From positions 1 through 46,803 of IMG/VR virus record IMGVR_UViG_3300035191_000038: a stretch of 46,803 bases of DNA; one strand, 5' to 3'. Below the pieces are notes generated by a model that was not told the DNA's origin, ran no database searches, and worked only from the letters and a program-made list of their open reading frames with translations. Made by a program: the position numbers and the translations under genes. Origin of the DNA: a virus. The stretch's first letter is position 1; each line of letters starts with the position of its first letter. Below, piece after piece: positions 7,540 through 22,176 of this stretch.

Positions 7540-7568
7540 TTGACAAAGCACTCAAACCTGAGGTAAAA
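7540..7568 (+). promoter_or_regulatory. Promoter-operator (family copy 1)
   Basis: TTGACA is followed by 17 bases and a poor -10 (GTAAAA). The operator-like ACCTGAGGT lies at 7556-7564, at the end of the spacer. Upstream is the AT-rich block AAAATCCGGAAAAAAG shared with the other copies. The weak -10 suggests either a need for an activator or a decayed copy. It precedes the winged-helix gene at 7623. Confidence 0.55.
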
Positions 7569-7622
7569 GGGGAGACAAATGGCGAAGGATCCAGTGGCTC
7601 TGGACCCGAAAAGGAGGCGGCG

Positions 7623-8351
7623 ATGGAGAAAAAGGGACTCGAGGCAGCGGCGGAGATGGGGAGGATCACAGTCGAGGGAAAGCCCCTCACTCGGTACCTG
7701 GACGAGAAGAGGGGGGAGGAGGCTGCCCGGGTGGCAGCAGAGATCATCGAGGAGAGAAGTCGCGGGCTGGCGCGTGGGGTGCCGGCCCGTTTTGTGTTTG
7801 GCGGTAAGCAAGGGGTGGAGACACGGGCCAGGACGTGGACCCCCCGCGAGATTAGAAGGAGGAAAGGGATTATGGCGAAACCGTATGGAACTGTGGCGGA
7901 GAACATCCTGTGGTGTGTGATCGAGAAGGGGCCGCTGACGGCCGGGGAGATCGGCGCCGAGCTGGGCAAGGACACGGGGAACATGACCTCGATCCTCTCG
8001 AGGTTGCACCGGGGGCTGCCGGATCTCATCCAGCCGGACAAGTCGACGAGGCCGTGGGCCTGGCAGGTGACGAAGCCGATCTCGGTCGAACATGCGTACA
8101 AGCGGTTCAAGGCGGGCACGGTGGTCAAGCCGGCGAAGAGGCGGATCGTCCGGCGGCGGAAGCCGGAGGCGGCGACGACCCCGCTGGAGCGGATCAAGTC
8201 GCTGGAGAAGGCGGCGGCTCCGGCGGTTGATGTGGAGGGGCTCGTGATCCGGGCCGTGGAGAAGATGGGGGCAGGGGAGCAGACGATTCATGTGAAGGTG
8301 TCCCACCGGATCGATGTCCGGTTCGGTATCCTGAAGGAAGGAGGCGGTTAA
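7623..8351 (+). CDS. Winged-helix DNA-binding protein
   Basis: A 242-residue protein. The ATG at 7623 is chosen because it follows AAAAGGAGGCGGCG and lies downstream of the promoter at 7540; the frame further upstream would precede transcription. Residues about 87-135 (TVAENILWCVIEKGPLTAGE to IQPDKSTRPWAW) look like a winged-helix domain, with the recognition helix near GNMTSILSRL. A basic linker (KRRIVRRRK) and a small C-terminal domain follow. A second start at 7872 (MAKPYG, preceded by AAGGAGGAAAGGG) would give a 159-residue form. It is a candidate regulator of the phage promoters. The next gene begins immediately after the stop. Confidence 0.75.
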   Translation: MEKKGLEAAAEMGRITVEGKPLTRYLDEKRGEEAARVAAEIIEERSRGLARGVPARFVFGGKQGVETRARTWTPREIRRRKGIMAKPYGTVAENILWCVIEKGPLTAGEIGAELGKDTGNMTSILSRLHRGLPDLIQPDKSTRPWAWQVTKPISVEHAYKRFKAGTVVKPAKRRIVRRRKPEAATTPLERIKSLEKAAAPAVDVEGLVIRAVEKMGAGEQTIHVKVSHRIDVRFGILKEGGG

Positions 8352-9119
8352 ATGAAGAAGAGGAAAAAGGAGGCTCTGGCTCAGCGACAGATCCTCCGGG
8401 CGATCTACAAGGCTGGAAGGAGGGGGGTCACGCCGAAGGAGCTGGAGGTGTTCCTCCCGGAGATGAAGCCGAAGACGGTCTCGGCCGGCACCTCGATTCT
8501 GTACGATCGGGTGGAGCACACCGGGATCCTCACCCGGACGGCGGAGCCCCGGAAGACGTACAGGTACAAACCGGGGACCGGCGGGATCCGGAGGGCGCTG
8601 GAGACGTTCGACAAGACACTGCCGAAGAAGAAGCGGCGGGTGGAGCCGGCCCCCAGGAAGCAGCCGGTCCAACCGGAGCTGCCCGGGATGGTGGCAGAGC
8701 CCAAGGAGCCCCTCCCTCCACCGGAGCCGGAACCGGAGCCAGAGGTCCGGATGGCCACACCGGAGGAGATGGATTCGATGGACCGCTTCGAGACCTTTGT
8801 CCGGTTCCTCTCGAGGGGCAGGAAGATCGAGAAGAAGAAGGGCAAGGCGGAGGGGGTCTTCCAGATGTTCCGCATCTCCCTGCCCGGCGCCGCCCTCGTG
8901 TCCGGCCTCATGAAGTGCCCGAGGTGCAGGTTCGAGCTTCGGAGGACGAGGATCTCGAAGGTGGACCGGAAGAACGGGAAGGTGACGGGGATCGAGTACA
9001 ACTACGACTGCCAGAGGTGTAACCTCATCTGGGAAGGGCTGGTGGAGTGCAGGGAGAAGGACCAGAAAAAGAAGGACGAGGTCGACCTGTCGGTCCTCGG
9101 TCTGGAGGAACTCGTATGA
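8352..9119 (+). CDS. Winged-helix protein with C-terminal zinc ribbon
   Basis: A 255-residue protein placed directly after the previous winged-helix gene. Residues about 8-70 (RQILRAIYKAGRRGVTPKEL to TYRYKPG) resemble a winged helix. A Pro/Glu-rich linker (PLPPPEPEPEPE) follows at about residues 117-130. The last third contains CPRC and CQRC pairs that should bind zinc, with basic residues between them. Nucleic-acid binding is likely, and it may work together with its neighbour. The end overlaps the next start (ATGA). Confidence 0.75.
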   Translation: MKKRKKEALAQRQILRAIYKAGRRGVTPKELEVFLPEMKPKTVSAGTSILYDRVEHTGILTRTAEPRKTYRYKPGTGGIRRALETFDKTLPKKKRRVEPAPRKQPVQPELPGMVAEPKEPLPPPEPEPEPEVRMATPEEMDSMDRFETFVRFLSRGRKIEKKKGKAEGVFQMFRISLPGAALVSGLMKCPRCRFELRRTRISKVDRKNGKVTGIEYNYDCQRCNLIWEGLVECREKDQKKKDEVDLSVLGLEELV

Positions 9120-9343
9120 AAAGAACACCGAAGAAGTCACTGGAGTCCCAGGTCTGGCGGGAGTTCGACCGGATCGCGTGCGAGAAGCATGGCGGCCAGT
9201 TCTTCCTGGTCGGGTACGCGACCGGGGTCGTTGCGGGGTTCGGGGGGCCGGCCAAGGGGAAGCTGCTCAACCTGCCCCGATACCCATCTGCCGTGGCGGC
9301 GCTGAAGGCGGCTACGGCGTCCGAGGGGGAAGATGCCGACTGA
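9116..9343 (+). CDS. Small basic hypothetical protein
   Basis: A 75-residue protein starting at an ATGA overlap with the previous stop. The basic N-terminus (MKRTPKKS) is followed by a mixed alpha/beta chain (GGQFFLVGYATGVVAGFGG). The frame upstream of 9116 is a shadow. No family is recognised. Confidence 0.7.
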   Translation: MKRTPKKSLESQVWREFDRIACEKHGGQFFLVGYATGVVAGFGGPAKGKLLNLPRYPSAVAALKAATASEGEDAD

Positions 9344-9518
9344 GTGGGTGGACCTCGAGGTGGAAATCTTGCGCGAGACCCCCGGGGCCTTTCTGATAAC
9401 GGATGGTGAGAACGAGTGCTGGCTGCCGAAGAGCCAAACGCGCCTTCTCGGGCGAGAGGGCAGGGACGCCCAGGTCCAGGTTCCGGAGTGGCTGGCACTC
9501 ACTGAGGGGTTGATATGA
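9333..9518 (+). CDS. Small phage protein with LPKSQ motif
   Basis: A 61-residue protein overlapping the previous gene by 11 bases. The pattern EVEILRETPGAFLITDGENE then WLPKSQ resembles a small beta-rich protein I recall as common in phages and mobile elements, of unknown function. Most of the chain should form strands. Confidence 0.75.
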   Translation: MPTEWVDLEVEILRETPGAFLITDGENECWLPKSQTRLLGREGRDAQVQVPEWLALTEGLI

Positions 9519-9679
9519 AGAAGAGAATGAGGGGCTGGTGGATCCACGCGGCGCTCATCCTGTCCGGGGGGTTCATGATTTATGGCGGGATCCTGTACCC
9601 GGGGCCGGTGGCGCTGGTATTTTGTGCCCCATTCGTTCTGATCGCCCTGGCGGCGATCGGGCTGGAGGTGAGTGAATGA
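9515..9679 (+). CDS. 54-residue protein with two membrane helices
   Basis: A short gene starting within the stop of its neighbour (TGATATG) and ending in an ATGA overlap with the next. The basic start MKKRMRGWW precedes two hydrophobic segments at about residues 9-26 and 31-50 (VALVFCAPFVLIALAAIGL). It probably forms a membrane hairpin. The function is unknown. Confidence 0.65.
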   Translation: MKKRMRGWWIHAALILSGGFMIYGGILYPGPVALVFCAPFVLIALAAIGLEVSE

Positions 9680-9888
9680 AGGACGTGCTATACTTGGAGG
9701 TCATAAAGCAGGACGAGCCGGTGGTCCGGATCGGATCCTGGAAGCCTCCCGGCGAGCGGATCGACAACTTCGACCAGCAGCGGGACATCGGCTGGCACAT
9801 CATGTTCGCCTTCCAGCAGGGCGCCCGGGAAGTCCGGGTGGTCCGGGCGCCGCCGAGGGAAGAGCAGTGGAAGGGGGTGACGCCGTGA
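9676..9888 (+). CDS. Hypothetical protein
   Basis: A 70-residue protein with ATGA overlap at its start and GTGA overlap at its end, so it is coupled to both neighbours. It is a polar alpha/beta chain (YLEVIKQDEPVVRIGSW, then WHIMFAFQQGAREVRVV). No family is recognised. Confidence 0.75.
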   Translation: MKDVLYLEVIKQDEPVVRIGSWKPPGERIDNFDQQRDIGWHIMFAFQQGAREVRVVRAPPREEQWKGVTP

Positions 9889-10031
9889 AGCTGAAGCACC
9901 TGGCGGTCATGATCCAGCTCGTCACGCTCGGGGTCCGTTGTGCAGTGCGTCTGACCGCATGGTGTCTGTTCGAGTTGCAGGATGCGGTTTGCCTTTGGGT
10001 GAGACAACGGATGGAAGAGGGATCGACATGA
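9885..10031 (+). CDS. 48-residue hypothetical protein
   Basis: Starts with GTG inside the stop of its neighbour (GTGA) and ends in an ATGA overlap with the next gene. A hydrophobic, Cys-containing helix (VTLGVRCAVRLTAWCLFEL) fills the middle, and three to four cysteines are present. It may associate with the membrane. No family is recognised. Confidence 0.55.
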   Translation: MKLKHLAVMIQLVTLGVRCAVRLTAWCLFELQDAVCLWVRQRMEEGST

Positions 10032-10111
10032 AGGTTGAAGAATGGCTGTTCGCAGCGGGGATGTTCTTTGTGATCATGGCTATCATGAGCTGGTTCGGCG
10101 TGTTCTGGTAG
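10028..10111 (+). CDS. 27-residue membrane peptide
   Basis: A tiny gene coupled by ATGA to the one before. MKVEEW is followed by one hydrophobic segment (AAGMFFVIMAIMSWFGVFW) that spans almost the whole product. It is one of several tiny membrane proteins in this window. Confidence 0.5.
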   Translation: MKVEEWLFAAGMFFVIMAIMSWFGVFW

Positions 10112-10128
10112 AAGGAGGGTGAGCATGA

Positions 10129-10353
10129 TTGATCCAGATGCTGCAAAAAATGTTTGACGATGTGAAGCAGCTAGAAAACATCACCAGAAACAAGCGGGAC
10201 CAACTGAGTGGAGCGTTGGAGAAGATCAAATGGGAAATTAGAATGGGGAAGAGATACATCAGGGGCCATCACGGGTTCTGTATAATGGACAGGGCTGAAC
10301 AGATAATCAGAGATGCCCTGGAGGGGGTGAGTCATGAGTCGAAGGACATCTGA
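10129..10353 (+). CDS. Hypothetical helical protein, TTG start
   Basis: A 74-residue protein with Lys-rich helices (LENITRNKRDQLSGALEKIK). GAAGGAGGGTGAGC lies upstream. The best-placed ATG (10125) opens only a ten-codon frame, so the gene probably starts at TTG 10129; ATG 10138 is possible but far from the ribosome-binding site. Its DNA is less GC-rich than its neighbours, which may mark a separate origin. The end overlaps the next gene. Confidence 0.6.
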   Translation: MIQMLQKMFDDVKQLENITRNKRDQLSGALEKIKWEIRMGKRYIRGHHGFCIMDRAEQIIRDALEGVSHESKDI

Positions 10354-10471
10354 ACGGGAACGGCAGAAGCAGGAGGCGGAGCGGCTCTACAACATGGCCG
10401 TGATCATCGCCTTCATCGTGATCGCCGGCGGGCTGCTGATGATCCTGTTCGAGGGGCTGCCGGTCCCGTAA
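10334..10471 (+). CDS. 45-residue single-pass membrane protein
   Basis: The start is preceded by GAGGGGGTGAGTC inside the end of the previous gene. A charged N-terminus (RRTSERERQKQEAER) is followed by one membrane helix (MAVIIAFIVIAGGLLMILF). The N-terminus is probably cytoplasmic. The function is unknown. Confidence 0.65.
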   Translation: MSRRTSERERQKQEAERLYNMAVIIAFIVIAGGLLMILFEGLPVP

Positions 10472-10480
10472 AAGGAGGGA

Positions 10481-10744
10481 ATGATGCACGTTCGCGTTCA
10501 AGTGGTTGTGGGCAAGATGGACAAGACGTGGTACGCCGAGGAGATCGAACTGCTCGAGCCCGAGGAGGACCGGATCGTTTCCATGGCACTCGAGCGGGCC
10601 GAGGAGAGGCTCCGGCTGGACGAGAGGGCGGCCAAGCAGGTGGCGTTCCTGGCGGTCTGGCACATCGAGCGGATAGGAGAAAATGATGGTATTCAGAAAG
10701 AAGGACTGGGTCAAGGCGGTGGAGGAGAGGGCAAAGGTGGATAA
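10481..10744 (+). CDS. Hypothetical acidic protein
   Basis: An 87-residue protein preceded by AAAAGGAGGGA. A beta strand (HVRVQVVVGKMDKTWYAEEI) is followed by charged helices. The last 20 residues are Gly-rich and lie in the overlap with the next gene, where the other frame is the conserved one. No family is recognised. Confidence 0.7.
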   Translation: MMHVRVQVVVGKMDKTWYAEEIELLEPEEDRIVSMALERAEERLRLDERAAKQVAFLAVWHIERIGENDGIQKEGLGQGGGGEGKGG

Positions 10745-10958
10745 GAATTTTCTACGATCCAAGGATGTGGCCAGGATCCTGGACTGCTCCCCGGACGATG
10801 TTCTCGATTGGAGGAGGAAGGGGTTCCTCGAGGGCAGGAAGCTCCGGCCGGGCAGCAGGATCTGGGTCTTCCGGGAGAAGGACGTGCTCAAGGCCCGAAA
10901 AAGGATCCGGAAGCACCAGGAGCTGTGGGGCCGGAAGCGGGTGTCGGCTACGGCGTGA
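10683..10958 (+). CDS. MerR/excisionase-like HTH protein
   Basis: A 91-residue protein. Residues about 24-75 (FLRSKDVARILDCSPDDVLD, then WRRKGFLEGRKL and WVFREKDVLKA) follow the pattern of the winged HTH of excisionases and MerR-type proteins (helix-turn-helix, wing, then a helix starting with a conserved Asp). It overlaps the preceding gene by 62 bases and starts at an ATGATG after GGATAGGAGAAA. It meets the leftward HD gene tail to tail with an 11-base overlap. A role in gene control or recombination is possible; no integrase is present. Confidence 0.75.
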   Translation: MMVFRKKDWVKAVEERAKVDKNFLRSKDVARILDCSPDDVLDWRRKGFLEGRKLRPGSRIWVFREKDVLKARKRIRKHQELWGRKRVSATA

Positions 10959-11376
10959 CACCCAGGATCGCCAGGGCGTTTTCGTAGCGTTTGGCGAGGC
11001 CGCGATGGGTCAGCGGGAGGAGATGCTTCCGGGCCAGGTGGTCGCGGAGATCGGCGATCTTCACCAGGCGTGCCAGGGGGTTCCCGGCCAGGGCCCGGAC
11101 GTAGTCGTTGTAGGCGATCCCGGTGGGGCGGGTCAAGGCCACGACAGCCGCGACGACGTCCTCGGCGAAGCCCCAGGCGCGGAGCTGGCCGGCCGTGACG
11201 ACCGTGTCCTCGAGGATGTCGTGGAGGATCCCGACGGTCCTCTCGACATCGGTGGTGAGCAGGGGGTCGGAGGCCACGCGCAGGGCGTGGGCGTACAGCG
11301 TGTAGCCCGCCTTGTCCACCCGGCGGGCGTACGCGATTTCCGCAATCTTGGCAGCTCTTTCAAGTTCCGTCATCAT
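10948..11376 (-). CDS. MESH1/SpoT-like HD-domain hydrolase
   Basis: A 142-residue protein made almost entirely of a RelA/SpoT-type HD fold. Visible metal and catalytic residues are H30 (YAHALRVA), H52-D53 and E56-D57 (LHDILEDT), and D109 (VKIADLRDHL). This is the pattern of small alarmone hydrolases, which remove the 3-prime diphosphate of (p)ppGpp. No synthetase domain is present. The start was set at ATGATG after GGAGGTGAGAGAG and downstream of its own promoter (11396-11424). It is transcribed alone, convergent to the HTH gene. The hydrolase family is clear; the substrate is inferred. Confidence 0.82.
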   Translation of the reverse strand: MMTELERAAKIAEIAYARRVDKAGYTLYAHALRVASDPLLTTDVERTVGILHDILEDTVVTAGQLRAWGFAEDVVAAVVALTRPTGIAYNDYVRALAGNPLARLVKIADLRDHLARKHLLPLTHRGLAKRYENALAILGVTP

Positions 11377-11395
11377 CTCTCTCACCTCCATTTTT

Positions 11396-11424
11396 AGGAT
11401 ACCAGAGGTGAGGCTTTTTGTCAA
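11396..11424 (-). promoter_or_regulatory. Promoter-operator (family copy 2) for the HD gene
   Basis: On the minus strand: TTGACA, 17 bases, TATCCT. The operator core ACCTCTGGT occupies 11401-11409. The upstream block AAAATCCTGGAAAGGG matches the other copies. The start codon follows about 20 bases after the -10 box. Confidence 0.75.
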
Positions 11425-11440
11425 GCCCTTTCCAGGATTT

Positions 11441-12007
11441 TTATCCCCGGTAGCGTTCGCCCTCGGGGTAGGTCGGCAGGTGCTGGCCGGCCTCGATCAG
11501 TCGCATCTCCTCCCGGAGCACGTACGCCCGGGCCTCCACGGCCTCCAGCTCCTGCTCCCGGACATCGTAGGCGTACTGGAGGTATTCCTTCTCCGCCTCC
11601 TCGAGGGCCCTCTCGTTCTCATCCGCCCAGTCGTTGACGGCGAAGGTGATCGCCTGGCGGAATTTCTTCTTGATCGATTTGGGTGCCTGGGTTGAGAGGG
11701 GTTTGCAAGCATACGGGATCCGGTCGATCTCTGGCTGCTTCGTCCCTTGTGGGTAGAGGCGCCAGAGGCCGTCCGAGTGCCGGTAGGCGTGGGCCGAGAC
11801 CCCGTACTTGAACCCGTGGAGCCAGAGCCCCGTGTCCGTGTTCGCGTGTCCGCTGTGGGCGTTCAGATAAATCTCGTCCCTCGAGGTCGGGGTGATCTCC
11901 ATCTCCCCCAGGAGCTTCTCCTTCTTCTTCCTGGTCTCCTCCCCGACGCCTCCGTAGTAGGCGCTCGGCGGGGCGTAGACAATTTGGATCTTGTCCGGTG
12001 TTTTCAT
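11441..12007 (-). CDS. Hypothetical protein
   Basis: A 188-residue protein starting at an ATG after GAAAGGAGGGACGAC. The N-terminus (TPDKIQIVYAPPSAYYGGVG) and the Trp/His-rich centre (GLWLHGFKYGVSAHAYRHSD) suggest a compact alpha/beta fold; the last 80 residues are strongly helical and acidic. It overlaps the LPD29 gene end by four bases and is the last gene of that leftward operon. No family is recognised. Confidence 0.75.
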   Translation of the reverse strand: MKTPDKIQIVYAPPSAYYGGVGEETRKKKEKLLGEMEITPTSRDEIYLNAHSGHANTDTGLWLHGFKYGVSAHAYRHSDGLWRLYPQGTKQPEIDRIPYACKPLSTQAPKSIKKKFRQAITFAVNDWADENERALEEAEKEYLQYAYDVREQELEAVEARAYVLREEMRLIEAGQHLPTYPEGERYRG

Positions 12008-12582
12008 GTCGTCCCTCCTTTCGCGGCCTCGAGGGCCGCCGGCGCCGGCGCCTTTGTGGTGACCGTGATCTGGTCTTCCTTCCCGGTGACGTTGACGATG
12101 TATCCCTGCTTCTCCAGGGAGTGACAGACCCACTCGAGGTCGTCGAGGCGCCCGCCGTCTTCATTCCAGATCGCAAGGGCGCCGTCCGGGCACTCCTGCC
12201 AGCCGTAACGGTGGCCGCCGAACCCGCGCCTGATCAGAATGTTGAAGTAGTTCTCGATCTGGTCCCGGAGGGTCGGGGGGCCGGCCGTGAGGTCCAGCTC
12301 GCTGACCAGCTGCCAGGCGTACTTGTCGCTCAGCTCCCGGTACTCGTTTGTGTACTGGCTGCCGCACCAGAGGTCGGTCATGATGTCGTCGTTCTTCGTG
12401 TCGTTGTACTGTCCGCAGAAGGCCCGGACGACTGCCTCTGGGGGCCCGTTCACGTAGCGAACGTGGATCCAGTGGGAGGCCGTGCCGCGCCCCTTCGTGA
12501 CCGAGAACTTCACCCCGGGGTATTCGGCCTGGAGGGCCTTCTTGATCTCCTTCGTGGTCTTTCTCTCGTATCCCTGGCTCAT
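12004..12582 (-). CDS. LPD29-domain protein
   Basis: A 192-residue protein. The N-terminal half (TTKEIKKALQAEYPGVKFSV, then ASHWIHVRYVNGPPEAVVRA and FCGQYNDTKNDDIMTDLW) matches the pattern of the large polyvalent protein-associated domain 29, found in phage and plasmid proteins and often in putative DNA-modification or ecology-related islands. No catalytic residue is known. It overlaps both neighbours by four bases (ATGA type), so the operon is translationally coupled. Confidence 0.7.
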   Translation of the reverse strand: MSQGYERKTTKEIKKALQAEYPGVKFSVTKGRGTASHWIHVRYVNGPPEAVVRAFCGQYNDTKNDDIMTDLWCGSQYTNEYRELSDKYAWQLVSELDLTAGPPTLRDQIENYFNILIRRGFGGHRYGWQECPDGALAIWNEDGGRLDDLEWVCHSLEKQGYIVNVTGKEDQITVTTKAPAPAALEAAKGGTT

Positions 12583-13814
12583 TTCTCTTCCTCCTCTTCT
12601 AGCTCCACGATCTTCGTGGGGCGGTTGACGATTGTTTCCTTGCCGTATCCGTTGTCGGCCTTGTGCTCCTTGACCATCGCGTCGAAGTCGTAGGCGAAGC
12701 CTTCGTCGAACTTCGGGGCGGTCCCGAACCAGACCAGCTTGTTGCCGGCTGGGAGGCGGAGCGTCGTGATGTAGGTCCTGCCGTAGTAGCCGTCATGGAC
12801 GTGGACCCGATCGCAGGTGGCGCCCTTGAAGCTCATCCTCTTCCCGACGGTCCCGATGTGCTCGCTCTCGAGGCGTTCCTTCTTCTTCCGTGCGATCCCC
12901 AGGAGTTTCTCCCGGGCGATCTTGTATGCGATCGGGGCGCTCGCCGCCAGCCCGAAGGCCCGGTTGGGCACATAGCCCAGACGGACGATCGTGGCCAGGT
13001 TCGCATAATAATCGTTGTCGATCGTTTCCTGCTTGGCCATTTCGTGGAGCCACCACCAGGCGCCGAAGGCCAGCTCTTCGGCCGCCGCCGTCACCGTGGG
13101 GCGCCTCTCGTTTTTCGGTGGGTTGACGCGGAGGTTGACGATGTCAGCCGTCGCGGCCTTGTCCCACTCTTCCGCCTTGGTCCTGCTGACGTACCCGTTC
13201 TCGAGGGTCTCGTCGGCGGCCTGGCAGAGGACCAGCCAGAGGTTGTCGCCCCGGGGGCCGGCGCCGTAGCCTTCGCCAGGGTCGCCGCCGAGGGTCATGA
13301 TCTCGCCCAGGCACTGGGCAGCCCAGAGGAAGTTCGTGGGGTCGATCCCCAGGAAGTCCTTGAGGCAGGTGGTGCCGACCTGCTTCGTGGTGCCGTCTTC
13401 GTGGCGGACGACGAAGGTGTCCTTCCGGGTCCTGGCGTACCCGCAGTGATCGCAGTCAGGGGCCGCGTCCGCGTACTTGGCGCGGATCCCGTCCGCCGCC
13501 GTCGGGGTCGCGTAGAGCAGGTTCGTGTACTCGCCTTCGAGCAGGTGGTGCTCGATGCGGGCCTGGAAGGTCCAGCCGGCCAGCTTTGGTGGATCGAAGT
13601 CAACCGCGACCGCCCGGAAGTTCTCGGTCGTGGTCACGTCGCAGCGGTTGATCGGATCGTACCCGGTGACGATCTCCTTCGGGAAGGGGGCGCCGACGGT
13701 CCAGTCGAGGATCCCGGCGAGGCCCTTCTTGGCCATTCTCTTCTTGATCTCCGTGAGCCGCTCGATGACTCCGGGGACCTTGTACGCGGGTATGTCCACT
13801 CTGATTTCTTCCAT
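12579..13814 (-). CDS. Conserved accessory protein with CxxC and VGTTCLKDFLG motif
   Basis: A 411-residue protein starting at an ATG after TGAAGGAGGGAGTG. In the N-terminal third, DCDHCGYARTRKDTFVVRHE followed by QVGTTCLKDFLGID forms a zinc-site-like module that I recall from large uncharacterised proteins of phages and conjugative elements. The rest is mixed alpha/beta and ends in EEEEEK. A longer reading frame reaches 13964 but that part overlaps the upstream gene and has no ribosome-binding site. The function is unknown. Confidence 0.8.
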   Translation of the reverse strand: MEEIRVDIPAYKVPGVIERLTEIKKRMAKKGLAGILDWTVGAPFPKEIVTGYDPINRCDVTTTENFRAVAVDFDPPKLAGWTFQARIEHHLLEGEYTNLLYATPTAADGIRAKYADAAPDCDHCGYARTRKDTFVVRHEDGTTKQVGTTCLKDFLGIDPTNFLWAAQCLGEIMTLGGDPGEGYGAGPRGDNLWLVLCQAADETLENGYVSRTKAEEWDKAATADIVNLRVNPPKNERRPTVTAAAEELAFGAWWWLHEMAKQETIDNDYYANLATIVRLGYVPNRAFGLAASAPIAYKIAREKLLGIARKKKERLESEHIGTVGKRMSFKGATCDRVHVHDGYYGRTYITTLRLPAGNKLVWFGTAPKFDEGFAYDFDAMVKEHKADNGYGKETIVNRPTKIVELEEEEEK

Positions 13815-14023
13815 CACACTCCCTCCTTCAGGGCCGCGAGCCCGGGGAACCAGGCCGCCGCCGCTCGGTTTGCAACCTCTCGGACGAAGAGAACCGCCCG
13901 GTCCTCGTTCCACCTCCCGGCGCGGACGGCAGCCAGGGCAAAGTCCTGAGCCTCCCGCCGCCACTCCATCAGGGCCGCCAGAGCCTCATCCCTTCCCAGC
14001 CGTCCCGCGCCTCCCTCTCTCAT
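13814..14023 (-). CDS. Small helical protein, first gene of leftward operon
   Basis: A 69-residue, Ala/Arg-rich helical protein. It is the first gene after the promoter at 14044-14072 and is preceded by GAAAGGAGGGAGAG. Its stop overlaps the start of the next gene. The conserved-looking part is DFALAAVRAGRWNEDRAVLF. No family is recognised. Confidence 0.7.
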   Translation of the reverse strand: MREGGAGRLGRDEALAALMEWRREAQDFALAAVRAGRWNEDRAVLFVREVANRAAAAWFPGLAALKEGV

Positions 14024-14043: not shown

Positions 14044-14072
14044 ATAATAGCAGTAGGTAAGTTCTTTGTCAA
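14044..14072 (-). promoter_or_regulatory. Promoter-operator (family copy 3)
   Basis: On the minus strand: TTGACA, 17 bases, TATTAT, a near-perfect sigma70 promoter. ACCTACTGC lies at 14050-14058. The sequence from the upstream A/T block through the leader is almost the same as copy 5 on the other strand (16184). It drives the four-gene operon ending at 11441. Confidence 0.8.
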
Positions 14073-14101: not shown

Positions 14102-14116
14102 TTGCAAGCGCTTGCA
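14102..14116. promoter_or_regulatory. TGCAAGCGCTTGCA palindrome upstream of leftward promoter
   Basis: A perfect 14-base palindrome whose centre is 37.5 bases before the first base of the -35 box at 14072, the same distance as at the 16138 copy. Read leftward it is followed by AAAATTTTTTT, so it could also form a weak intrinsic terminator for the upstream leftward gene that ends at 14121. Confidence 0.5.
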
Positions 14117-15622: not shown

Positions 15623-15718
15623 TCAACCGCCGAGTCCCGGCCACCGATGGGCCAGGATCCAGTATTCGCAGTACCCGATTGCCGCCAAGCAGATTGTGAG
15701 AGCGATTGCCGTTTCCAT
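15623..15718 (-). CDS. 31-residue membrane peptide
   Basis: Starts in an ATGA overlap with the preceding short gene. METAIALTICLAAIGYCEYW is one hydrophobic segment followed by a short polar tail. The longer open frame upstream is a shadow of the previous gene. Confidence 0.5.
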   Translation of the reverse strand: METAIALTICLAAIGYCEYWILAHRWPGLGG

Positions 15719-15870: not shown

Positions 15871-15892
15871 CTCTCTCCCTCCTTTCAATTAT

Positions 15893-15921
15893 AAGGTACC
15901 ATAGGTAATATTCTGTGTCAA
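15893..15921 (-). promoter_or_regulatory. Promoter-operator (family copy 4)
   Basis: On the minus strand: TTGACA, 17 bases, TACCTT, with TATAAT five bases further on. The operator core ACCTATGGT lies at 15898-15906 in a wider GGTACC/GGTA repeat. It drives the leftward genes 15870-14121. Confidence 0.75.
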
Positions 15922-15987
15922 GCATTTTTTCGGGTTTTTTGAAAAAAAATTAAAAAAAATATTCCTCAACGAAATCGGTAGGTTACA

Positions 15988-16054
15988 GGCGCTCTCGCGC
16001 CCGCGCACGCCCGCGCACGCGCCCGGGCGCCCGTGTACGCGCACGCGCACGCGA
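15988..16054. repeat. Alternating purine-pyrimidine GC tract (Z-DNA potential)
   Basis: Mostly GCGC, GCAC and GTAC steps with few breaks, flanked by AT-rich DNA. Such tracts adopt Z-form under negative supercoiling, here between two divergent promoters. Confidence 0.6.
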
Positions 16055-16137
16055 GGTTCCGGGGGATTCCTCGAGGTTCCCTCTCGAGGGCATCGTTTCT
16101 ATTGGTTGTATAGCGTTACGCATATTAGAACACACCC

Positions 16138-16155
16138 TTTGCAGGCGCTTGCAAA
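16138..16155. promoter_or_regulatory. TTTGCAGGCGCTTGCAAA near-palindrome
   Basis: An 18-base inverted repeat with one mismatch. The centre is 37.5 bases before the -35 box at 16184, exactly as at 14102. It is followed by eight T residues on the plus strand, so a terminator-like hairpin is an alternative reading. Confidence 0.5.
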
Positions 16156-16183
16156 TTTTTTTTGAAAAAATTTGAGAAAAGAC

Positions 16184-16212
16184 TTGACAAAGAAGTTACC
16201 TACTGCTATATT
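16184..16212 (+). promoter_or_regulatory. Promoter-operator (family copy 5)
   Basis: TTGACA, 17 bases, TATATT. ACCTACTGC lies at 16198-16206. Upstream is an A/T block (TTGAAAAAATTTGAGAAAAG). The leader TTAAGATGAAAGGAG is almost the same as at copy 3. It drives the rightward genes from 16233. Confidence 0.8.
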
Positions 16213-16232
16213 TAAGATGAAAGGAGAGAGAG

Positions 16233-16445
16233 ATGATGAGAATGGGCGGAAGGAAAGAAGACCTGATCACGCGGCTGCGGATGGTGCGGGCCGCCTCCGG
16301 CCTGACGGTGGCCGAGGCCGTGGCCTCCACCAGCGGCTACAGGCGGAAGACGGTGGCCGAGCTGGCCGCCCTCTGGAACGCTGAGTACGCCGCCGCGCCG
16401 AAGACCGCGAACGGAAAAATTGCCATCATCAAGAAGGAGGGCTGA
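16233..16445 (+). CDS. Small basic protein, first gene of rightward operon
   Basis: A 70-residue protein preceded by GAAAGGAGAGAGAG, about 20 bases after the -10 box. TVAEAVASTSGYRRKTVAEL is a helical segment that could resemble a SAP- or HTH-like DNA-binding unit; the C-terminus is basic. No firm family can be named. Confidence 0.7.
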   Translation: MMRMGGRKEDLITRLRMVRAASGLTVAEAVASTSGYRRKTVAELAALWNAEYAAAPKTANGKIAIIKKEG

Positions 16446-16447
16446 TC

Positions 16448-16798
16448 ATGGAATGGGATGTCATTCACACCTACACGGCGAAGGACGCGGTCGCGGACGG
16501 GATGCTGGTCGAGGTCCCCGAGAAGACCGCGAAGGAGGCCGGCTTCAACTGGCCGGTCCGGATCACCTGCGGCGTGCACGAGCTGTGCACCCCCCCGAAG
16601 AGCAACACGACCCAGACCTACGAAGGGCGCCTCTGGGACGTCCTCTTCCTGGCCTACCTGGCCATCAAGCGGACCCCGGCCGGCGAGGGGCTGGCCACCT
16701 ACAAGGTCAAGATCGGCCGGAAGGTCGAGACCCTCTGGGCGGCGGTCGACGGGACCTGCGGCCCCGCGATCCACATCCTGACCCCTGCGGAGTATTAA
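16448..16798 (+). CDS. DUF6573-like protein
   Basis: A 116-residue protein with YTAKDAVADGMLVEVPEKTA and KEAGFNWPVRITCGV. This is the pattern of a widespread phage and plasmid protein family usually annotated DUF6573, whose function is unknown. The lengths agree. It starts two bases after the previous stop and is preceded by GAAGGAGGGC. Confidence 0.8.
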   Translation: MEWDVIHTYTAKDAVADGMLVEVPEKTAKEAGFNWPVRITCGVHELCTPPKSNTTQTYEGRLWDVLFLAYLAIKRTPAGEGLATYKVKIGRKVETLWAAVDGTCGPAIHILTPAEY

Positions 16799-16808
16799 GG
16801 AGGAAGTC

Positions 16809-17057
16809 ATGAAAGCGAAACGAGTGAGGGCAGGTGCCCGCTACATTTACCAGCCGGTTCCCTACGACAGGATCCACCCCCCGAAGGGGGCGGACGTCGA
16901 GGCCGGCGACACGGTCAAGGTGGTCAACCTGTACGGCTGCCCGAAGGCGAACACGATGGGCCAGTGCTACATCGAGAAGGACGGGGAGTTCGTCGGCATG
17001 GTCTGCACGAACAGCCTCAAGTCCAGGAGAGGAGGAAGCCATGGGACGAGTAAATGA
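16809..17057 (+). CDS. Hypothetical beta-rich protein
   Basis: An 82-residue protein preceded by AAGGAGGAAGTC. It appears beta-rich (GDTVKVVNLYGCPKANTMG, then YIEKDGEFVGMVCTNSL), like a small SH3- or KOW-type barrel. The last residues overlap the next gene. No family is recognised. Confidence 0.75.
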   Translation: MKAKRVRAGARYIYQPVPYDRIHPPKGADVEAGDTVKVVNLYGCPKANTMGQCYIEKDGEFVGMVCTNSLKSRRGGSHGTSK

Positions 17058-17280
17058 GATTTGGCAGTGTCAGGAGATGGACCCGGACGAGACCCTCGAG
17101 ATCCTGATCGCCGAGAACGGCGGGGACTACGGGGACTGTGAGCGGGTGACCCTCGAGTCGCTCGACGAGCACTGGGAGAACCAGGACCGCTGGCCGGTAT
17201 GGAACCAGCTGATGAAGGCGAAGCTCCGCGAATTGGTGGCAGCCGGGAAGCCGTTCTGGTGGTTCACGATCCACTACTGA
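17041..17280 (+). CDS. Hypothetical acidic protein
   Basis: A 79-residue protein whose ATG follows GAGAGGAGGAAGCC inside the end of the previous gene. It is acidic and aromatic-rich (LDEHWENQDRWPVWNQLMKA), probably helical. The longer open frame upstream is a shadow. No family is recognised. Confidence 0.75.
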   Translation: MGRVNEIWQCQEMDPDETLEILIAENGGDYGDCERVTLESLDEHWENQDRWPVWNQLMKAKLRELVAAGKPFWWFTIHY

Positions 17281-17292
17281 AAGGAGGGAGCC

Positions 17293-17562
17293 ATGAGGTT
17301 CAAGAAGTCGAAGACGGGAGTCCGTCACGTCGAGGTCGGGCGGGTGATGGGGATCAAGAGCGGAGAGTATTTCATCCTCTCGGCCCAGAACGGGACCGGG
17401 AACCTGAAGTTCTCGAAGCTCTACAAGTACGGGGAGCTGGTGAAGATCCCGGCCGAGGTCAAGGGGAAGCTCACGAAGGAGGAGCGGGCCCTGGTCGACG
17501 AGATCCGGGACTACGTCAAGAGCACGCGGCACCGGCCCCGGAAGAAAGGAGCCACGACATGA
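17293..17562 (+). CDS. Hypothetical basic protein
   Basis: An 89-residue protein preceded by GAAAGGAGGGAGCC. The first two thirds look beta-rich (HVEVGRVMGIKSGEYFILSA), and the C-terminal third is a basic helix (KSTRHRPRKK). It is coupled to the next gene by an ATGA overlap. A nucleic-acid contact is plausible from charge only. Confidence 0.75.
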   Translation: MRFKKSKTGVRHVEVGRVMGIKSGEYFILSAQNGTGNLKFSKLYKYGELVKIPAEVKGKLTKEERALVDEIRDYVKSTRHRPRKKGATT

Positions 17563-17741
17563 AGACCCTCGAGCAGGAGCTGGTCGACAAGATCAGCGAG
17601 ATGATGACCCGGATCCTCCTGGCCAGGGAGATCGCCTACAAGGTCGAGACGGGCATGTGCCCGGCCAGGCCGGAGGCGGCCCGGGAGCTTCACAGACTTC
17701 TGACCGAGGCGGCCAAGATCGGCGCCGGCCAGGGCCCCTAA
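17559..17741 (+). CDS. Small helical protein
   Basis: A 60-residue, all-helical protein (LVDKISEMMTRILLAREIAY, then PEAARELHRLLTEAAKIGA). It ends the transcription unit that began at 16233; the next promoter follows after 18 bases. No family is recognised. Confidence 0.7.
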   Translation: MKTLEQELVDKISEMMTRILLAREIAYKVETGMCPARPEAARELHRLLTEAAKIGAGQGP

Positions 17742-17759
17742 AAAATTTTTGAAAAGGGC

Positions 17760-17788
17760 TTGACAAAAAGATAACCTATGGTTATCTT
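17760..17788 (+). promoter_or_regulatory. Promoter-operator (family copy 6), most symmetric operator
   Basis: TTGACA, 17 bases, TATCTT. The spacer and -10 box together hold a perfect 19-base inverted repeat, AGATAACC-TAT-GGTTATCT (17769-17787), around the core ACCTATGGT (17774-17782). It is the best model for the operator of this family. A repressor bound here would cover the -10 box. Confidence 0.85.
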
Positions 17789-17809
17789 ATAAGTGGAAGG
17801 AGGGACGAC

Positions 17810-18211
17810 ATGGCGACTTACTTGGTACTTCAGATGGCAGAGTGGGCGACCCTCTGGGATGAGGCCGAGATCGTGGCCCACGCCCTCCGGGAGCCCTACG
17901 ACATTGTGGCCAAGGTGAAGGCCAACGGGCTGGACGAGGTCTACTACCTGACGAACAACATCGAGTCCTCCTGGACCGGGAACGAGGGCGTGACTCCCGC
18001 CCCCAGGTTCGCGGAAGGCTGCCGCTCCAGCTCCGTGGGCGACGTCTTCTACGATGCCGAGGCGAAGGTGGGCTACGCGGTCCTCCCGCTCGGCTTCTCG
18101 AAGCCGATCCGGAACCTCGGCCTGGCGAGGGCTGGGGAGAAGGCGCTCAGCGGGATCGAGGGCCCTCGAGGCAGGTGGTGGAATTTCGGCCCCGCACTCA
18201 TGGGGATGTAG
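17810..18211 (+). CDS. Hypothetical protein with SVGDVF motif
   Basis: A 133-residue protein, the first gene after promoter copy 6, preceded by GGAAGGAGGGACGAC. The centre CRSSSVGDVFYDAEAKVGYA resembles the RSxSVGDV pattern that I recall from accessory proteins of phages and plasmids. No catalytic residues are evident. Confidence 0.75.
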   Translation: MATYLVLQMAEWATLWDEAEIVAHALREPYDIVAKVKANGLDEVYYLTNNIESSWTGNEGVTPAPRFAEGCRSSSVGDVFYDAEAKVGYAVLPLGFSKPIRNLGLARAGEKALSGIEGPRGRWWNFGPALMGM

Positions 18212-18220
18212 GAGGAAGTC

Positions 18221-19750
18221 ATGGCGGCAACGGACAAGGCGATCAAAGGCAAGGTGGGCATCCCGGCGGAATACTTCCTCCGGATGGCCAAGCACGATTA
18301 TGACGACTACCGCGAGGCCCTGGCCCGCGAGTTCTACCAGAACTCGATCGACGCCGGCGCCCGGGAGATCCGCGTCGACGTGGACGAGGAGAGCCGGACG
18401 GTGACGGTCGCGGACGATGGATGCGGGATGACCCGCGACATCCTGATCAACAAGCTCCTGGTGCTGGGAGGGACCCACAAGGCCGAGGGAGCAGTGGGCG
18501 CCTTCGGGAAGGCCAAAGAGATCCTGCTTTTCTCCTGGGCGAGCTACTCGGTCCTGACCTGGAAGGGCTCGGAAGCCTGGGCCGTCCACGGCGCCGGCGC
18601 CGAGTACACAGTCCAGCCAGGGATCCCAGGCGACGAGAAGCCCAGCGGGACCATTATCCAGATCGTGATCCCGAAGGGCGAGGATATATGCGCCATCGGC
18701 CGGGCGTTTCGGACCGTGGCCCACAAGATACAAACCCGAACCAAGATCATTCTCGGCGGGATCCCGATCCTGTGCAACCTCTACCGTGGCCGCCTCCAGA
18801 GGCGGACCGACTGGTGCCGGATTTACCAGACCAAGAAATACACGAACTACAACGCCTCCGTCCGGATCGACGGGATCTGGATGTTCGACTGGTGGATCGG
18901 TGCTGGGTATGGCACGGTGGTGATCGAGCTGGACCGGACGAGCCTCGAGTGCCTGACCTCGAACCGCGACGGCCTGAAGGGCCAGTGGCGCCAGACTGCT
19001 GAGAAATTCCTCCGCGAGCTGGCCATCGACAAGACGAGCGCCCTCCGGGACCGCGAGGAGCTGGTGACCGAGCTGATCCGGGGAACCGGCGCCGTGAACA
19101 TGGCCGACGAGAAGGTCGACCAGATCATCACCAGCTACACGGACGGGGACATCGGGCCCCAGGAAGTGGCCGGCGCCATCGGGCGGGTCCTCGAGGAGCA
19201 GGGCGGCGTGGCTGTCAGCGAGAACCTGGCCGACCTGGCCGCCGAGGCCAAGAGGGTGGGCAGCTGGTACGACCTGATCGGGAAGATCAAGTTCCTGGCG
19301 AACGCCCCGGACTTCGTGATCCGCTACCCCCGGAACAAGCGAGCGGTCCTCCGCCGGTACACCGAGACCGCCCGGGCCCGGACGATCGCCAAGATGTGGG
19401 GCGAGACCGTGAAGCAGGTCCTCGCGGACAACGCCAAGACGAGCGTCAGCTACCGCCCCGGCTTCACCTTCGAGCGCGGGATCGAGGCCCAGATCAAGGG
19501 CACGGCCGACGGCTCGAAGCTGATCCTCTTGAACCCCAAGAACCTGGGCGCGGTCGTCGGGTGCGACAAGCCCCTGTCGAACCGGAAGCTCCTGATCGAA
19601 GAGCTGAAGGACCGGGCGATCCACGAGGTCACCCACCTCGAGAAGGACTACCACGACGAGGACTTCGTCAACGCCCTGTCCCGGATCCGCCTCCGGACCG
19701 TGAAGAGCGACAAGGCGTACTACCAGATCAGCCAGATCAAAGTGAAGTAA
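18221..19750 (+). CDS. GHKL ATPase with C-terminal HExxHx5H motif
   Basis: A 509-residue protein. The N-terminal part is a GHKL (Hsp90/MutL/histidine kinase) ATP-binding domain: N-box E37 and N41 (REFYQNSIDAGA), G1 box D65-D66-G67-C68-G69, and G2-like VGAFGKAKE at 92-100. Near the C-terminus, HEVTHLEKDYH (468-478) has the spacing of the metzincin zinc motif but with Lys where Gly is usual. No histidine-kinase dimerisation region or transmembrane part is seen. It starts after TAGGAGGAAGTC, nine bases after its neighbour. An ATP-driven clamp or chaperone-like machine with a metallopeptidase-like end is the plain reading; its substrate is unknown. Confidence 0.82.
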   Translation: MAATDKAIKGKVGIPAEYFLRMAKHDYDDYREALAREFYQNSIDAGAREIRVDVDEESRTVTVADDGCGMTRDILINKLLVLGGTHKAEGAVGAFGKAKEILLFSWASYSVLTWKGSEAWAVHGAGAEYTVQPGIPGDEKPSGTIIQIVIPKGEDICAIGRAFRTVAHKIQTRTKIILGGIPILCNLYRGRLQRRTDWCRIYQTKKYTNYNASVRIDGIWMFDWWIGAGYGTVVIELDRTSLECLTSNRDGLKGQWRQTAEKFLRELAIDKTSALRDREELVTELIRGTGAVNMADEKVDQIITSYTDGDIGPQEVAGAIGRVLEEQGGVAVSENLADLAAEAKRVGSWYDLIGKIKFLANAPDFVIRYPRNKRAVLRRYTETARARTIAKMWGETVKQVLADNAKTSVSYRPGFTFERGIEAQIKGTADGSKLILLNPKNLGAVVGCDKPLSNRKLLIEELKDRAIHEVTHLEKDYHDEDFVNALSRIRLRTVKSDKAYYQISQIKVK

Positions 19751-19761
19751 AGGAGGAGACC

Positions 19762-19953
19762 ATGGCCTGGAGATGTTTCGAGTGTGCCCTCGGAGAGCAC
19801 GACAACTACGACGACGATGTTCGGCTCGTCGGGATTCGGGATCCTGACACCGGCCGGCTCTACCGCCGGGCCAGGATGTGCAGGGAGCACCGGGAGATGT
19901 ACGCCCAGGACGGCTACATTGTCAACGAGGCAAACAAAGGAGAGGGGACATGA
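19762..19953 (+). CDS. Small Cys-rich protein
   Basis: A 63-residue protein preceded by AAAGGAGGAGACC. CFEC near the N-terminus, with C and H residues in RMCREHREMY, suggests one zinc site. It overlaps the next gene by four bases. The frame upstream is a shadow of the ATPase gene. Confidence 0.75.
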   Translation: MAWRCFECALGEHDNYDDDVRLVGIRDPDTGRLYRRARMCREHREMYAQDGYIVNEANKGEGT

Positions 19954-20225
19954 GAAAACGACGGCTAAGGATGACGGTCGAGTTCGACCTGGAGCCAAAG
20001 GACAACGGCTACGCCCACATGCTCAAGTACCTGATGATCGACGCCCTGGCGGAGTTCTGGAAGAACAGGGATCCGGCGCCCCAGTACGTGATGCGGCGAT
20101 ATGAGGAGATGGAGCTGAAGTGGGTCGAGGCGAAGATCCCCCAGGTCGAGGAGAGGAACGAGGCGGCCCAGGCGATCCTCCACGGGGTCCACAACAATAT
20201 CAAGATCGAGGAGGTCGAGGCATGA
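19950..20225 (+). CDS. Hypothetical helical protein
   Basis: A 91-residue protein starting in an ATGA overlap and preceded by AGGAGAGGGGAC. A basic strand (RKRRLRMTVEFDLE) precedes long helices (LKYLMIDALAEFWKNRD). It is coupled to the next gene by ATGA. No family is recognised. Confidence 0.75.
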   Translation: MRKRRLRMTVEFDLEPKDNGYAHMLKYLMIDALAEFWKNRDPAPQYVMRRYEEMELKWVEAKIPQVEERNEAAQAILHGVHNNIKIEEVEA

Positions 20226-20476
20226 AAAAGCGATTCGGGTTTTACGCGGTCCCGCGCCACGCCATGGAGTTCATCGTGGTGGAGGGCGTCGGGCCGAACG
20301 AGATCCAGATGGAGATCCGGGCGGAGATCGAGGCCAGGAAAGCGAGGCAGCACTACTTCCTGATCCCGAAGGACGTGAAGGAGGCCCTGGACCAGAACCG
20401 CCCCGGGAGGAAGGTCGTGGTCTGCGATTGGACCGGAAAGGCGGCGGGAGATGAAAAAACTCGGAAAAACCCTTGA
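20222..20476 (+). CDS. Hypothetical protein
   Basis: An 84-residue protein, coupled to the previous gene. It contains FGFYAVPRHAMEFIVVEGVG and a helical centre with YFLIPKDVKEALDQ. The stop codon overlaps the -35 hexamer of the next promoter (20473), so the two units are packed without spare DNA. Confidence 0.7.
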   Translation: MKKRFGFYAVPRHAMEFIVVEGVGPNEIQMEIRAEIEARKARQHYFLIPKDVKEALDQNRPGRKVVVCDWTGKAAGDEKTRKNP

Positions 20477-20501
20477 CAAAGGGGGGAACCTGCTGTATCC
20501 T
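20473..20501 (+). promoter_or_regulatory. Promoter-operator (family copy 7)
   Basis: TTGACA, 17 bases, TATCCT, with TATAAT four bases further on. ACCTGCTGT lies at 20488-20496. The leader TATAATTGGAAGGAGGG is like that of copy 4. The -35 box lies at the end of the preceding gene. Confidence 0.75.
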
Positions 20502-20523
20502 ATAATTGGAAGGAGGGTGAGAG

Positions 20524-20604
20524 ATGAAAAAGGCAGCAAAAAAGGCGAGAGTCCGGAGGGCCCGGAGCGGGGCCTTCAGGCGCTGGCGGAAACGGAGGGC
20601 GTGA
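20524..20604 (+). CDS. 26-residue highly basic peptide
   Basis: The first gene after promoter copy 7, with GGAAGGAGGGTGAGAG before the ATG. Half of its residues are Lys or Arg (KKARVRRARSG, then RRWRKRR). It shares TGATG with the next start. It may bind nucleic acid, act as a leader peptide, or be a small inhibitor. Confidence 0.5.
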   Translation: MKKAAKKARVRRARSGAFRRWRKRRA

Positions 20605-20795
20605 TGGCGCTCCTCCGCTGGTACGACATAGACCCAAAAGCCTCGGACCTTTGGGTGATCGAAGGGCCGGCGGACTGGACCCTGGAAGAAGTGAACCGGG
20701 CAGTCCGGGCGACCGGGGATCCCCCTCCGGGAGGCAGGTGGGTGTCGGACTACGAGTGGGAAACCTACCACGGCAAGATGGAGATCGTATCATGA
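20604..20795 (+). CDS. Hypothetical small protein
   Basis: A 63-residue protein with the start in a TGATG overlap with the basic peptide. It is Trp-rich (WYDIDPKASDLWVIEGPADW). The open frame extends upstream past the promoter but the start must lie after it. It is coupled by ATGA to the next gene. Confidence 0.7.
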   Translation: MALLRWYDIDPKASDLWVIEGPADWTLEEVNRAVRATGDPPPGGRWVSDYEWETYHGKMEIVS

Positions 20796-21034
20796 GGAAG
20801 CTCGGAACAGTTCTCGCGGCGATCGTCCTGGCCGCCCAGGTGGCCACGATCCCGGACACGGTCGTCAAGGACCGGACCTTCGTCACCGAGAACGGCAAAC
20901 GGGTCCTCGAGATCCGGGAAGATCCCCTGATCGAGGGGCAGTACCAGATGAGAGATGAAGACGGGAACCAGGCGGGCCACTGGCGACGGGACCCCCTCTT
21001 CCCGGACAGATACCAGTACCGGGAGGGCCCATGA
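20792..21034 (+). CDS. Exported or membrane-anchored small protein
   Basis: An 80-residue protein with an N-terminal signal-like segment (MRKLGTVLAAIVLAAQVATI). The rest is polar with repeated acidic and aromatic residues (DPLIEGQYQMRDEDGNQAGH). It overlaps both neighbours by four bases. The function is unknown. Confidence 0.7.
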   Translation: MRKLGTVLAAIVLAAQVATIPDTVVKDRTFVTENGKRVLEIREDPLIEGQYQMRDEDGNQAGHWRRDPLFPDRYQYREGP

Positions 21035-21621
21035 GGAAGGAGGAAGCCCTGCCCACCCTGCGGGCTGTGGCGTCCTGGCTCGAGGAATCCGGCCAGGACG
21101 TTGTCGTATGCGGCGCCGCCCGGCGGGGGGCCAAGGAGATCGAGCACACGGACATCGTCATCCGGGGCCCCTTAGTGCAAGCGCTTGCAGACCTCGAGGA
21201 GATGTGCAAGCTCGTCAGCCTGGAGTGCGCGGTCCTCGAGCAGGGGGACCAGTACGCGGCCCTGCTCGTCAACGAGATCCAGCTGGCCCTCCATGTCGTC
21301 TACCAGGAAGCCTGGGGGGCTCATATATTATACTATACAGGGAACCAGGTGTTCAGGGTCGCCATGGCGGCCGAGGCGAAGAGCCAGGGCTACAAGCTCA
21401 ACTCTCGGGGGCTCTGGCATCGGAGCGAGCTGATCGCCGGCCGGACCGAGGAGCAGATATTCGACGCCCTGGATCTGGCCTACATCCCGCCCACGCGGCG
21501 GACCTTCCGATGGAAACGAAACCGAAAACCCCTCAGGAGAAAAGGAGAAATCTGTGGCGAAAGTCAGAACGATCCGGATGAAGAACGGCCAGGAGTCGAA
21601 GCCCAAGCTCCGGGAAGGTGA
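21031..21621 (+). CDS. PolX-family nucleotidyltransferase-like protein, active site degraded
   Basis: A 196-residue protein that aligns with the palm and thumb of family X DNA polymerases. CGAARRGAKE (27-36) corresponds to the GSxRRG motif, HILYYTGNQVF (98-108) to the LYFTGS segment, and EEQIFDALDLAYIPP (140-154) to the C-terminal IFxxLxLxYxPP. Of the three catalytic Asp residues of the family, only one is kept: the positions read H39-T40-D41 and Q84 instead of D-x-D and D. The N-terminal 8-kDa and finger regions are absent. Polymerase activity is therefore unlikely; it may be a binding protein or an altered nucleotidyltransferase. The last 25 residues overlap the next gene. Confidence 0.72.
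   Translation: MRKEEALPTLRAVASWLEESGQDVVVCGAARRGAKEIEHTDIVIRGPLVQALADLEEMCKLVSLECAVLEQGDQYAALLVNEIQLALHVVYQEAWGAHILYYTGNQVFRVAMAAEAKSQGYKLNSRGLWHRSELIAGRTEEQIFDALDLAYIPPTRRTFRWKRNRKPLRRKGEICGESQNDPDEERPGVEAQAPGR
21176..21189. promoter_or_regulatory. TGCAAGCGCTTGCA palindrome inside the PolX-like gene
   Basis: A perfect copy of the 14-base palindrome, here inside a coding region (Val-Gln-Ala-Leu-Ala codons, with an uncommon CTT for Leu). No promoter lies nearby. It could be a binding site used for looping or simply chance. Confidence 0.35.
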
Positions 21622-22054
21622 GCAGCGGACCCCCCAGGAGCTGCTGGGCGTGTCCGGGAAGCCGGCGGAACTTGAGGAGGTGGCCGAGGACCTGTCCGTC
21701 GAGGAGGTCCAGCTGTTAATTGACGAGGGTGCCGAACTGAGTGCTGTCAACAAGGAGAACGCCGACCGGGAGAAGCAGATCAAGATCCTCCTCCGGCGGA
21801 ACGCCGAGTTCAACGGCTGGAAGGAGATGGCCGGCCAGGTCGGCCAGTGCAAGATCAAGGCGTCCAGCTCGACAAAGATCCCAGCGATGAAGCTCCTCGA
21901 GAAGATCCGGGAGCTGGGCAAACAGAAACTCTTTGGCTCCGTATTCAAGGCTGATGTGACGGCCGCGAGGCAGTACCTCGGCAAGGACGACATCGAGGAG
22001 ATCGCCGAGATCGAGAAGAAGGAGTACGGATCCGTGTCCCTGAAGCGGCTGTAG
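21554..22054 (+). CDS. Hypothetical acidic protein
   Basis: A 166-residue protein starting with GTG after AAAGGAGAAATCT, 68 bases inside the previous gene. It is mostly helical and charged (ELEEVAEDLSVEEVQLLIDE, then KENADREKQIKILLRRNAEF). It is the last gene before the intrinsic terminator at 22085. No family is recognised. Confidence 0.75.
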   Translation: MAKVRTIRMKNGQESKPKLREGEQRTPQELLGVSGKPAELEEVAEDLSVEEVQLLIDEGAELSAVNKENADREKQIKILLRRNAEFNGWKEMAGQVGQCKIKASSSTKIPAMKLLEKIRELGKQKLFGSVFKADVTAARQYLGKDDIEEIAEIEKKEYGSVSLKRL

Positions 22055-22084
22055 TTACCCACCTGTTCCGATACCCTCCACACG

Positions 22085-22127
22085 TCCCGGCAGGGTTTTT
22101 TTCTCCTTTCCCCTGCCGGGATTTTTT
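22085..22127 (+). terminator. Intrinsic terminator closing the accessory operon
   Basis: An 11-base perfect stem, TCCCGGCAGGG paired with CCCTGCCGGGA, with a 15-base T-rich loop, followed by six T residues. It lies 30 bases after the stop of the last accessory gene and just before the virion-module promoter. Confidence 0.88.
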
Positions 22128-22147
22128 ACCCCCCGGGTAAAATTCGG

Positions 22148-22176
22148 TTGACAAGCCCATATCCCTGTGGTACCCA
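22148..22176 (+). promoter_or_regulatory. Promoter-operator (family copy 8) before virion genes
   Basis: TTGACA, 17 bases, TACCCA (weak -10). CCCTGTGGT at 22163-22171 is the least conserved operator of the set. It lies 22 bases after the terminator and precedes a long run of rightward virion genes with no other visible promoter. The different leader and weak -10 may reflect late expression. Confidence 0.6.

Follow-up and report, generated by a model that had tools for sequence, protein, structure and literature searches.

The repeated element SPBRE of phage SPbeta was recognised in silico long before its repressor, MrpR, which has a tyrosine-recombinase fold and represses dispersed units (PMC10516654). 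In the cluster A mycobacteriophages, stoperators are not restricted to promoters and also occupy non-promoter intergenic spaces (PMC9283540). Here, we analysed a stretch of 46.8 kb (46,803 nucleotides, hereafter the window), i.e., the record IMGVR_UViG_3300035191_000038 of an uncultured phage, with a GC content of 0.61, in which a short element with an ACCT core is repeated within promoters. We propose, as on balance the probable reading, that the ACCT element is the predicted site of a phage-encoded sequence-specific protein which co-regulates dispersed promoters at gene starts in this phage and its close relatives, most likely by repressing them. This suggests that one phage-encoded protein may switch many phage genes together.

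Head proteins and a terminase of the kind found in the DLP5/VHS1-type family of large siphoviruses are encoded in the window, and a megablast search against cultivated phages gave no match. A near-identical, overlapping contig of 50 kb (G001) brings the sequence searched for this phage to about 57 kb, about half of the genome lying outside the contigs. Searches with polA and RecA proposed L341, from the same sample, as the missing part of the genome; its RecA matches that of G002 at 57%, and it was judged to be another phage because its GC content differs (0.545). The relatives were picked by capsid similarity from partly incomplete records, and their GC content spans 0.33 to 0.63; among them, L340 is closely related to the window phage but was obtained from a different sample. 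Promoters were called with simple patterns. In this family, DLP3 and DLP5 are temperate (PMC7326821, PMC5834331), and VHS1 shows unstable lysogens and superinfection immunity (PMC10671443). Moreover, capsid-gene relatives are found in long bacterial contigs, i.e., L403 (Roseococcus pinisoli, 668 kb) and L405 (Reyranella, 367 kb), which suggests integrated or carried phages. A repressor is therefore plausible in the family.

The preliminary description had listed eight promoters, on both strands, sharing one embedded operator, and each of the eight quoted variants is present at its quoted position. Six of these promoters are strong (TTGACA-N17-TANNNT), while those at 7540 and 22148 are weak because of their poor −10 boxes (GTAAAA/TAAAAG and TACCCA, respectively). 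In promoter 7540, the element ACCTGAGGT (7556–7564, plus strand) places ACCT at offset 10 after TTGACA. On the minus strand, ACCTCTGGT (11401–11409; −35 edge at 11424) precedes an HD-domain gene (10948–11376), ACCTACTGC (14050–14058; −35 edge at 14072) precedes a leftward operon with a phrog_2319 gene (12579–13817), and ACCTATGGT (15898–15906) belongs to the promoter whose −35 edge is at 15921. On the plus strand, ACCTACTGC recurs at 16198–16206 in promoter 16184, before a 70-aa ORF (16233–16445); ACCTATGGT recurs at 17774–17782 in promoter 17760, this best copy lying within an inverted repeat (17769–17787); and ACCTGCTGT (20488–20496) lies in promoter 20473. The weakest member, CCCTGTGGT (22163–22171, plus strand), belongs to the promoter-like site 22148; this site precedes the virion module, whose proposed inclusion in the regulon depends on it. 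The putatively regulated genes include those of an LPD29-domain protein (12004–12582) and of a GHKL-type ATPase (18221–19750). Promoters 15921 and 16184 are divergent, and the region that separates them contains a long alternating CG-rich stretch (15980–16060).

The strict pattern TTGACA-N15–19-TANNNT, which misses the promoter-like site 22148, matches the window six times versus 0.21 expected (none of 100 shuffles reached six), and all six promoters carry ACCTNNKGY. ACCT stands 8–10 bases after 7 of the 14 TTGACA of the window (0.18 expected). With a position weight matrix (PWM) built from the eight listed sites, and first-order Markov resamples as background, 11 matches scored at least as high as the weakest listed site, versus 0.47 in the resamples. 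They are the eight listed sites, a reverse reading of 7556–7564, and two minus-strand matches at 7288 and 27109, the latter within the virion region. By these counts, shuffled or coding DNA does not hold as many matches as the promoters, and the first outcome that the preliminary description had named as refuting it thus did not occur. The match at 7288, absent from the initial list, is the extra candidate ACCTGATGC (7278–7286, minus strand); it is embedded in TTGCAC-N18-TACTTT and has a PWM score (14.4) above those of two of the eight listed sites; it points left into a non-coding stretch (6.5–7.2 kb), in a promoter-like intergenic arrangement. The region 6450–7250 contains repeated C and G runs resembling hairpins; an Rfam search that included it gave no match at E ≤ 0.1.

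The element had been described as a symmetric ACC-N3-GGT. Its invariant part is the left half, with CCT in eight of eight copies and an A before it in seven, whereas the right half varies (GGT in five, TGC in two, TGT in one) and in part overlaps the extended −10; the symmetric description thus fits part of the set. The "perfect 19-base palindrome" announced at 17769–17787 is really AGATAACC-TAT-GGTTATCT, i.e., two 8-bp arms around a non-symmetric TAT centre. As the clade motif also has a weak dyad score, symmetry does not, overall, support dimeric binding. The spacer positions 9–17 given initially apply to three promoters, in which the element starts at position 9, whereas it starts at position 10 in four others and at 11 in one. 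Its offsets are 8, 9, or 10 bases to the −35 box and 8 or 9 to the −10 box; since both vary, it stands as a unit separate from either box.

Within the window, similarity is not limited to the spacers (0.58): the upstream A-tract (0.77) and the downstream Shine-Dalgarno region (0.74) are alike too, and the 14072 and 16184 promoters agree across about 90 bp. Cassette duplication therefore inflates the similarity observed inside the window, and the independent evidence has to come from recurrence in other genomes. In the strict scan, ACCT-core promoters number six in the window, four in G002, and three each in G006, G012, and L340, while six permuted cores, scanned in the same way in the window, G002, G006, and G012, gave 0–1 promoters per core. 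ACCT is retained before the orthologous gene beside the DNA polymerase, in the replication operon, of G002 (84721), G006 (51751), and G007 (38333). In unrelated phage contigs, ACCT at −8 is rare (7 of 105 promoters over four positions). A loose-pattern scan of IMG/VR returned at least 120 stretches, with one match apiece among the matches listed, and was uninformative; it was superseded by a stricter pattern, which recovers just 19 stretches across IMG/VR, G002 and G006 accounting for four. On sequence grounds, the existence of the element, its enrichment and position, and the fact that a clade conserves it are thereby established.

More distant relatives without ACCT carry their own spacer motif, repeated in several to sixteen promoters, e.g., ATGATTTTAACCGGTGT in G013, ATTGCCTTAAAAGGAAT in G018, AATTNANTCAATCTG in G027, and AAACAAATCAAACGAC in the cultivated phage VHS1; no clear spacer-motif cluster was found in G004, G034, and DLP5. 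The mean within-genome spacer similarity is 0.48, versus 0.376 ± 0.009 with permuted genome labels (0 of 2000 permutations reach 0.48). The position of the motif differs by genome, i.e., near the −10 box, in the middle of the spacer, or over the −35 box. G002 (L252, L253) also has a second repeated promoter type, TTGACGAAAAGAATAACATAGGGTAAATT, found in seven promoters, e.g., after palindromes 35659, 37943, and 40227. From these comparisons, the ACCT element looks like the operator of a lineage-specific regulon.

Three other explanations have to be weighed, each of which we consider unlikely. The promoters could be alike by common descent alone, as duplicated cassettes (A-tract, promoter, Shine-Dalgarno) that are still undiverged. 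Flanks as alike as the spacer in the window promoters and the long agreement between 14072 and 16184 speak for such duplication. However, similarity is higher in the spacer than in the flanks in G002, G012, L340, G013, G027, and VHS1, and ACCT stands out amid diverged neighbours at the orthologous promoters of three genomes. The element could also be a part of the promoter itself, a spacer or extended −10 that the host RNA polymerase prefers, without the intervention of a regulator, and we find this equally improbable. Its nearly fixed distance of 8–9 bases to the −10 box and the extended −10 TG of several copies would agree with such a preference, but G006 and G012 retain ACCT despite having mostly lost this TG, the offsets to both boxes vary, and the relatives carry different motifs at different positions of their core promoters. 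Moreover, the range of GC content among these relatives makes a common host preference unlikely.

MerR proteins classically activate from within the spacer, and a MerR-like gene lies within the replication module of relatives. The element may thus be an activator site, through which a phage protein, possibly the MerR-like one, would activate transcription at a given moment. This reading, to which we give as little credit as to the two others, is opposed by the near-consensus −35 and −10 boxes spaced by 16–18 bp, with which activation should be unneeded, and by the motif position, which differs between genomes. A repressor role for the reader of ACCT is favoured by three features: the overlap of the element with the core promoter, the one- or two-base shifts of its offset, and the varying position of the motif among relatives. 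Such positional freedom would be easier to reconcile with steric repression than with a polymerase contact or with an activator bound at a fixed position. We infer the reading by a protein, its phage origin, and the repression together: the phage protein would bind the ACCT element and cover the spacer and the −10 box, RNA polymerase would then be unable to open the promoter, and all the units would be derepressed at once if the protein were lost. The earlier proposal of one dimeric regulator silencing all the units is strengthened by the conservation of ACCT in relatives and by the genome-specific motifs found elsewhere, while its dimeric part lacks symmetry support.

Several proteins could be considered as the putative repressor. 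By HMM, a small MerR-like protein is found in DLP5, VHS1, G002, G007, G004, G013, G018, G025, G027, L340, and others, its gene lying between helicase and RecA wherever the neighbourhood was read. Pfam MerR_1 is above cut-off for the proteins of L340, G002, DLP5, and L355; compared with the PDB, the profile of the protein matches MerR DNA-binding domains (best E 7e-7); and MerR structures rank first among the matches to the L340 model (pLDDT 87.6), at E-values no better than 1e-3. The HMM search did not find this gene in the 57 kb of the window phage, and it is missing at the expected place in G023, G034, and RcZahn, G023 showing repeated spacer motifs despite this. Since the gene was not found in these 57 kb, nor at that place in some relatives, its link to the motif is a proposal: tentatively, the reader may be this MerR-like protein, the best of the candidates, encoded in the uncovered part of the genome, which we regard as possible rather than probable. 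An [IV]QTIR helix in the regulator accompanies A[CT]CT in the spacers of G002, L340, and G007 (partly in L343), but we did not use this covariation as proof because phylogeny confounds the comparison.

Two proteins encoded in the window also deserve attention. The preliminary description recognised no known repressor family there; Pfam, run on part of the window proteins, does recognise a 91-aa HTH_17/MerR_1 excisionase-like protein (10683–10958, plus strand), which passes the HTH_17 cut-off and equals that of MerR_1. It is distinct from the MerR-like regulator of the family, with which it shares a weak 34-column match, and is a possible regulator. The other is a candidate DNA-binding protein (7623–8351, plus strand), encoded by the first sizeable gene after promoter 7540. 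Its match to MarR is weak, G002 and G003 have homologues of it, and its AlphaFold model is of low confidence (pLDDT 56.9); the preliminary description had put it forward as a candidate, as it had the protein of 8352.

A second, dispersed type of repeat accompanies some of these promoters. Genome-specific palindromes of 14–16 bp occur in many copies in G002, G004, G006, G007, G012, G014, G018, and G034, with about 18–22 copies per genome in the richest ones. The window has four copies: TGCAAGCGCTTGCA at 14103–14116 and its variant TGCAGGCGCTTGCA at 16140–16153, each 30 bp upstream of the −35 box of promoters 14072 and 16184, respectively, and TGCAAGCGCTTGCA again at 6537–6550 (intergenic) and at 21176–21189 (within ORF 21031–21621). 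In each of five genomes of the ACCT group, palindromes located at most 120 bp upstream of ACCT or ACCT-like promoters exceed those at random places (P 0.0005–0.004). Across the family, some palindromes lie 1–34 bp upstream of the −35 boxes of shared promoters. The family also encodes ParB-like proteins, in which Pfam recognises ParB_N alone (G012 and DLP5, with a match under the cut-off for G002) and no DNA-binding domain. One may imagine a two-operator silencing of the KorA/KorB type, in which a fast-evolving repressor (the MerR-like protein of the helicase–RecA interval, perhaps) would act on the core-promoter operator and a second protein on the palindrome, leading to genome-wide repression and heteroimmunity; we hold this scheme to be rather improbable.

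If the proposed regulation by the ACCT element holds true, a family of phages of 80–100 kb, some of which are temperate phagemids (DLP3, DLP5), would use genome-specific operators embedded in promoters, a system on which our literature search found nothing. Regulons and immunity groups would then be predictable from sequence alone. The promoter sites defined here, and one candidate protein, can be submitted to a direct test of binding.

Classical MerR-activated promoters have a spacer of 19–20 bp with a dyad at its centre. The ACCT promoters share with the MerR family the location of the element between the −35 and −10 boxes and a MerR-like protein widespread in the phage family, but their spacers are of 16–18 bp and the clade motif is only weakly dyadic. 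The lambda CI operators are clustered, whereas the ACCT sites are single and dispersed. As in the KorA/KorB system of RK2 (PMC11790492), a predicted core-promoter operator coexists with a dispersed, putative palindromic operator, found in association with promoters in five genomes, and ParB-fold proteins are encoded; the operator sequences, however, are unrelated. Like the operators and stoperators of cluster A phages (L5, TipsytheTRex; PMC9283540), the ACCT sites are many and asymmetric, with a lineage-specific sequence. The comparison with stoperators made in the preliminary description is nevertheless weak, the PWM finding almost no window sites away from promoters: nine of the 11 matches are listed or reverse-read sites, one is promoter-like, and one lies in the virion region. 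With SPBRE/MrpR, the likeness is that one element is repeated in many promoters of a phage, as found here, although the sequence and placement of SPBRE are unrelated to those of the ACCT element. By its way of working only, and with membership in neither assigned, the ACCT system would thus resemble SPBRE/MrpR and, less closely, the L5 operators.
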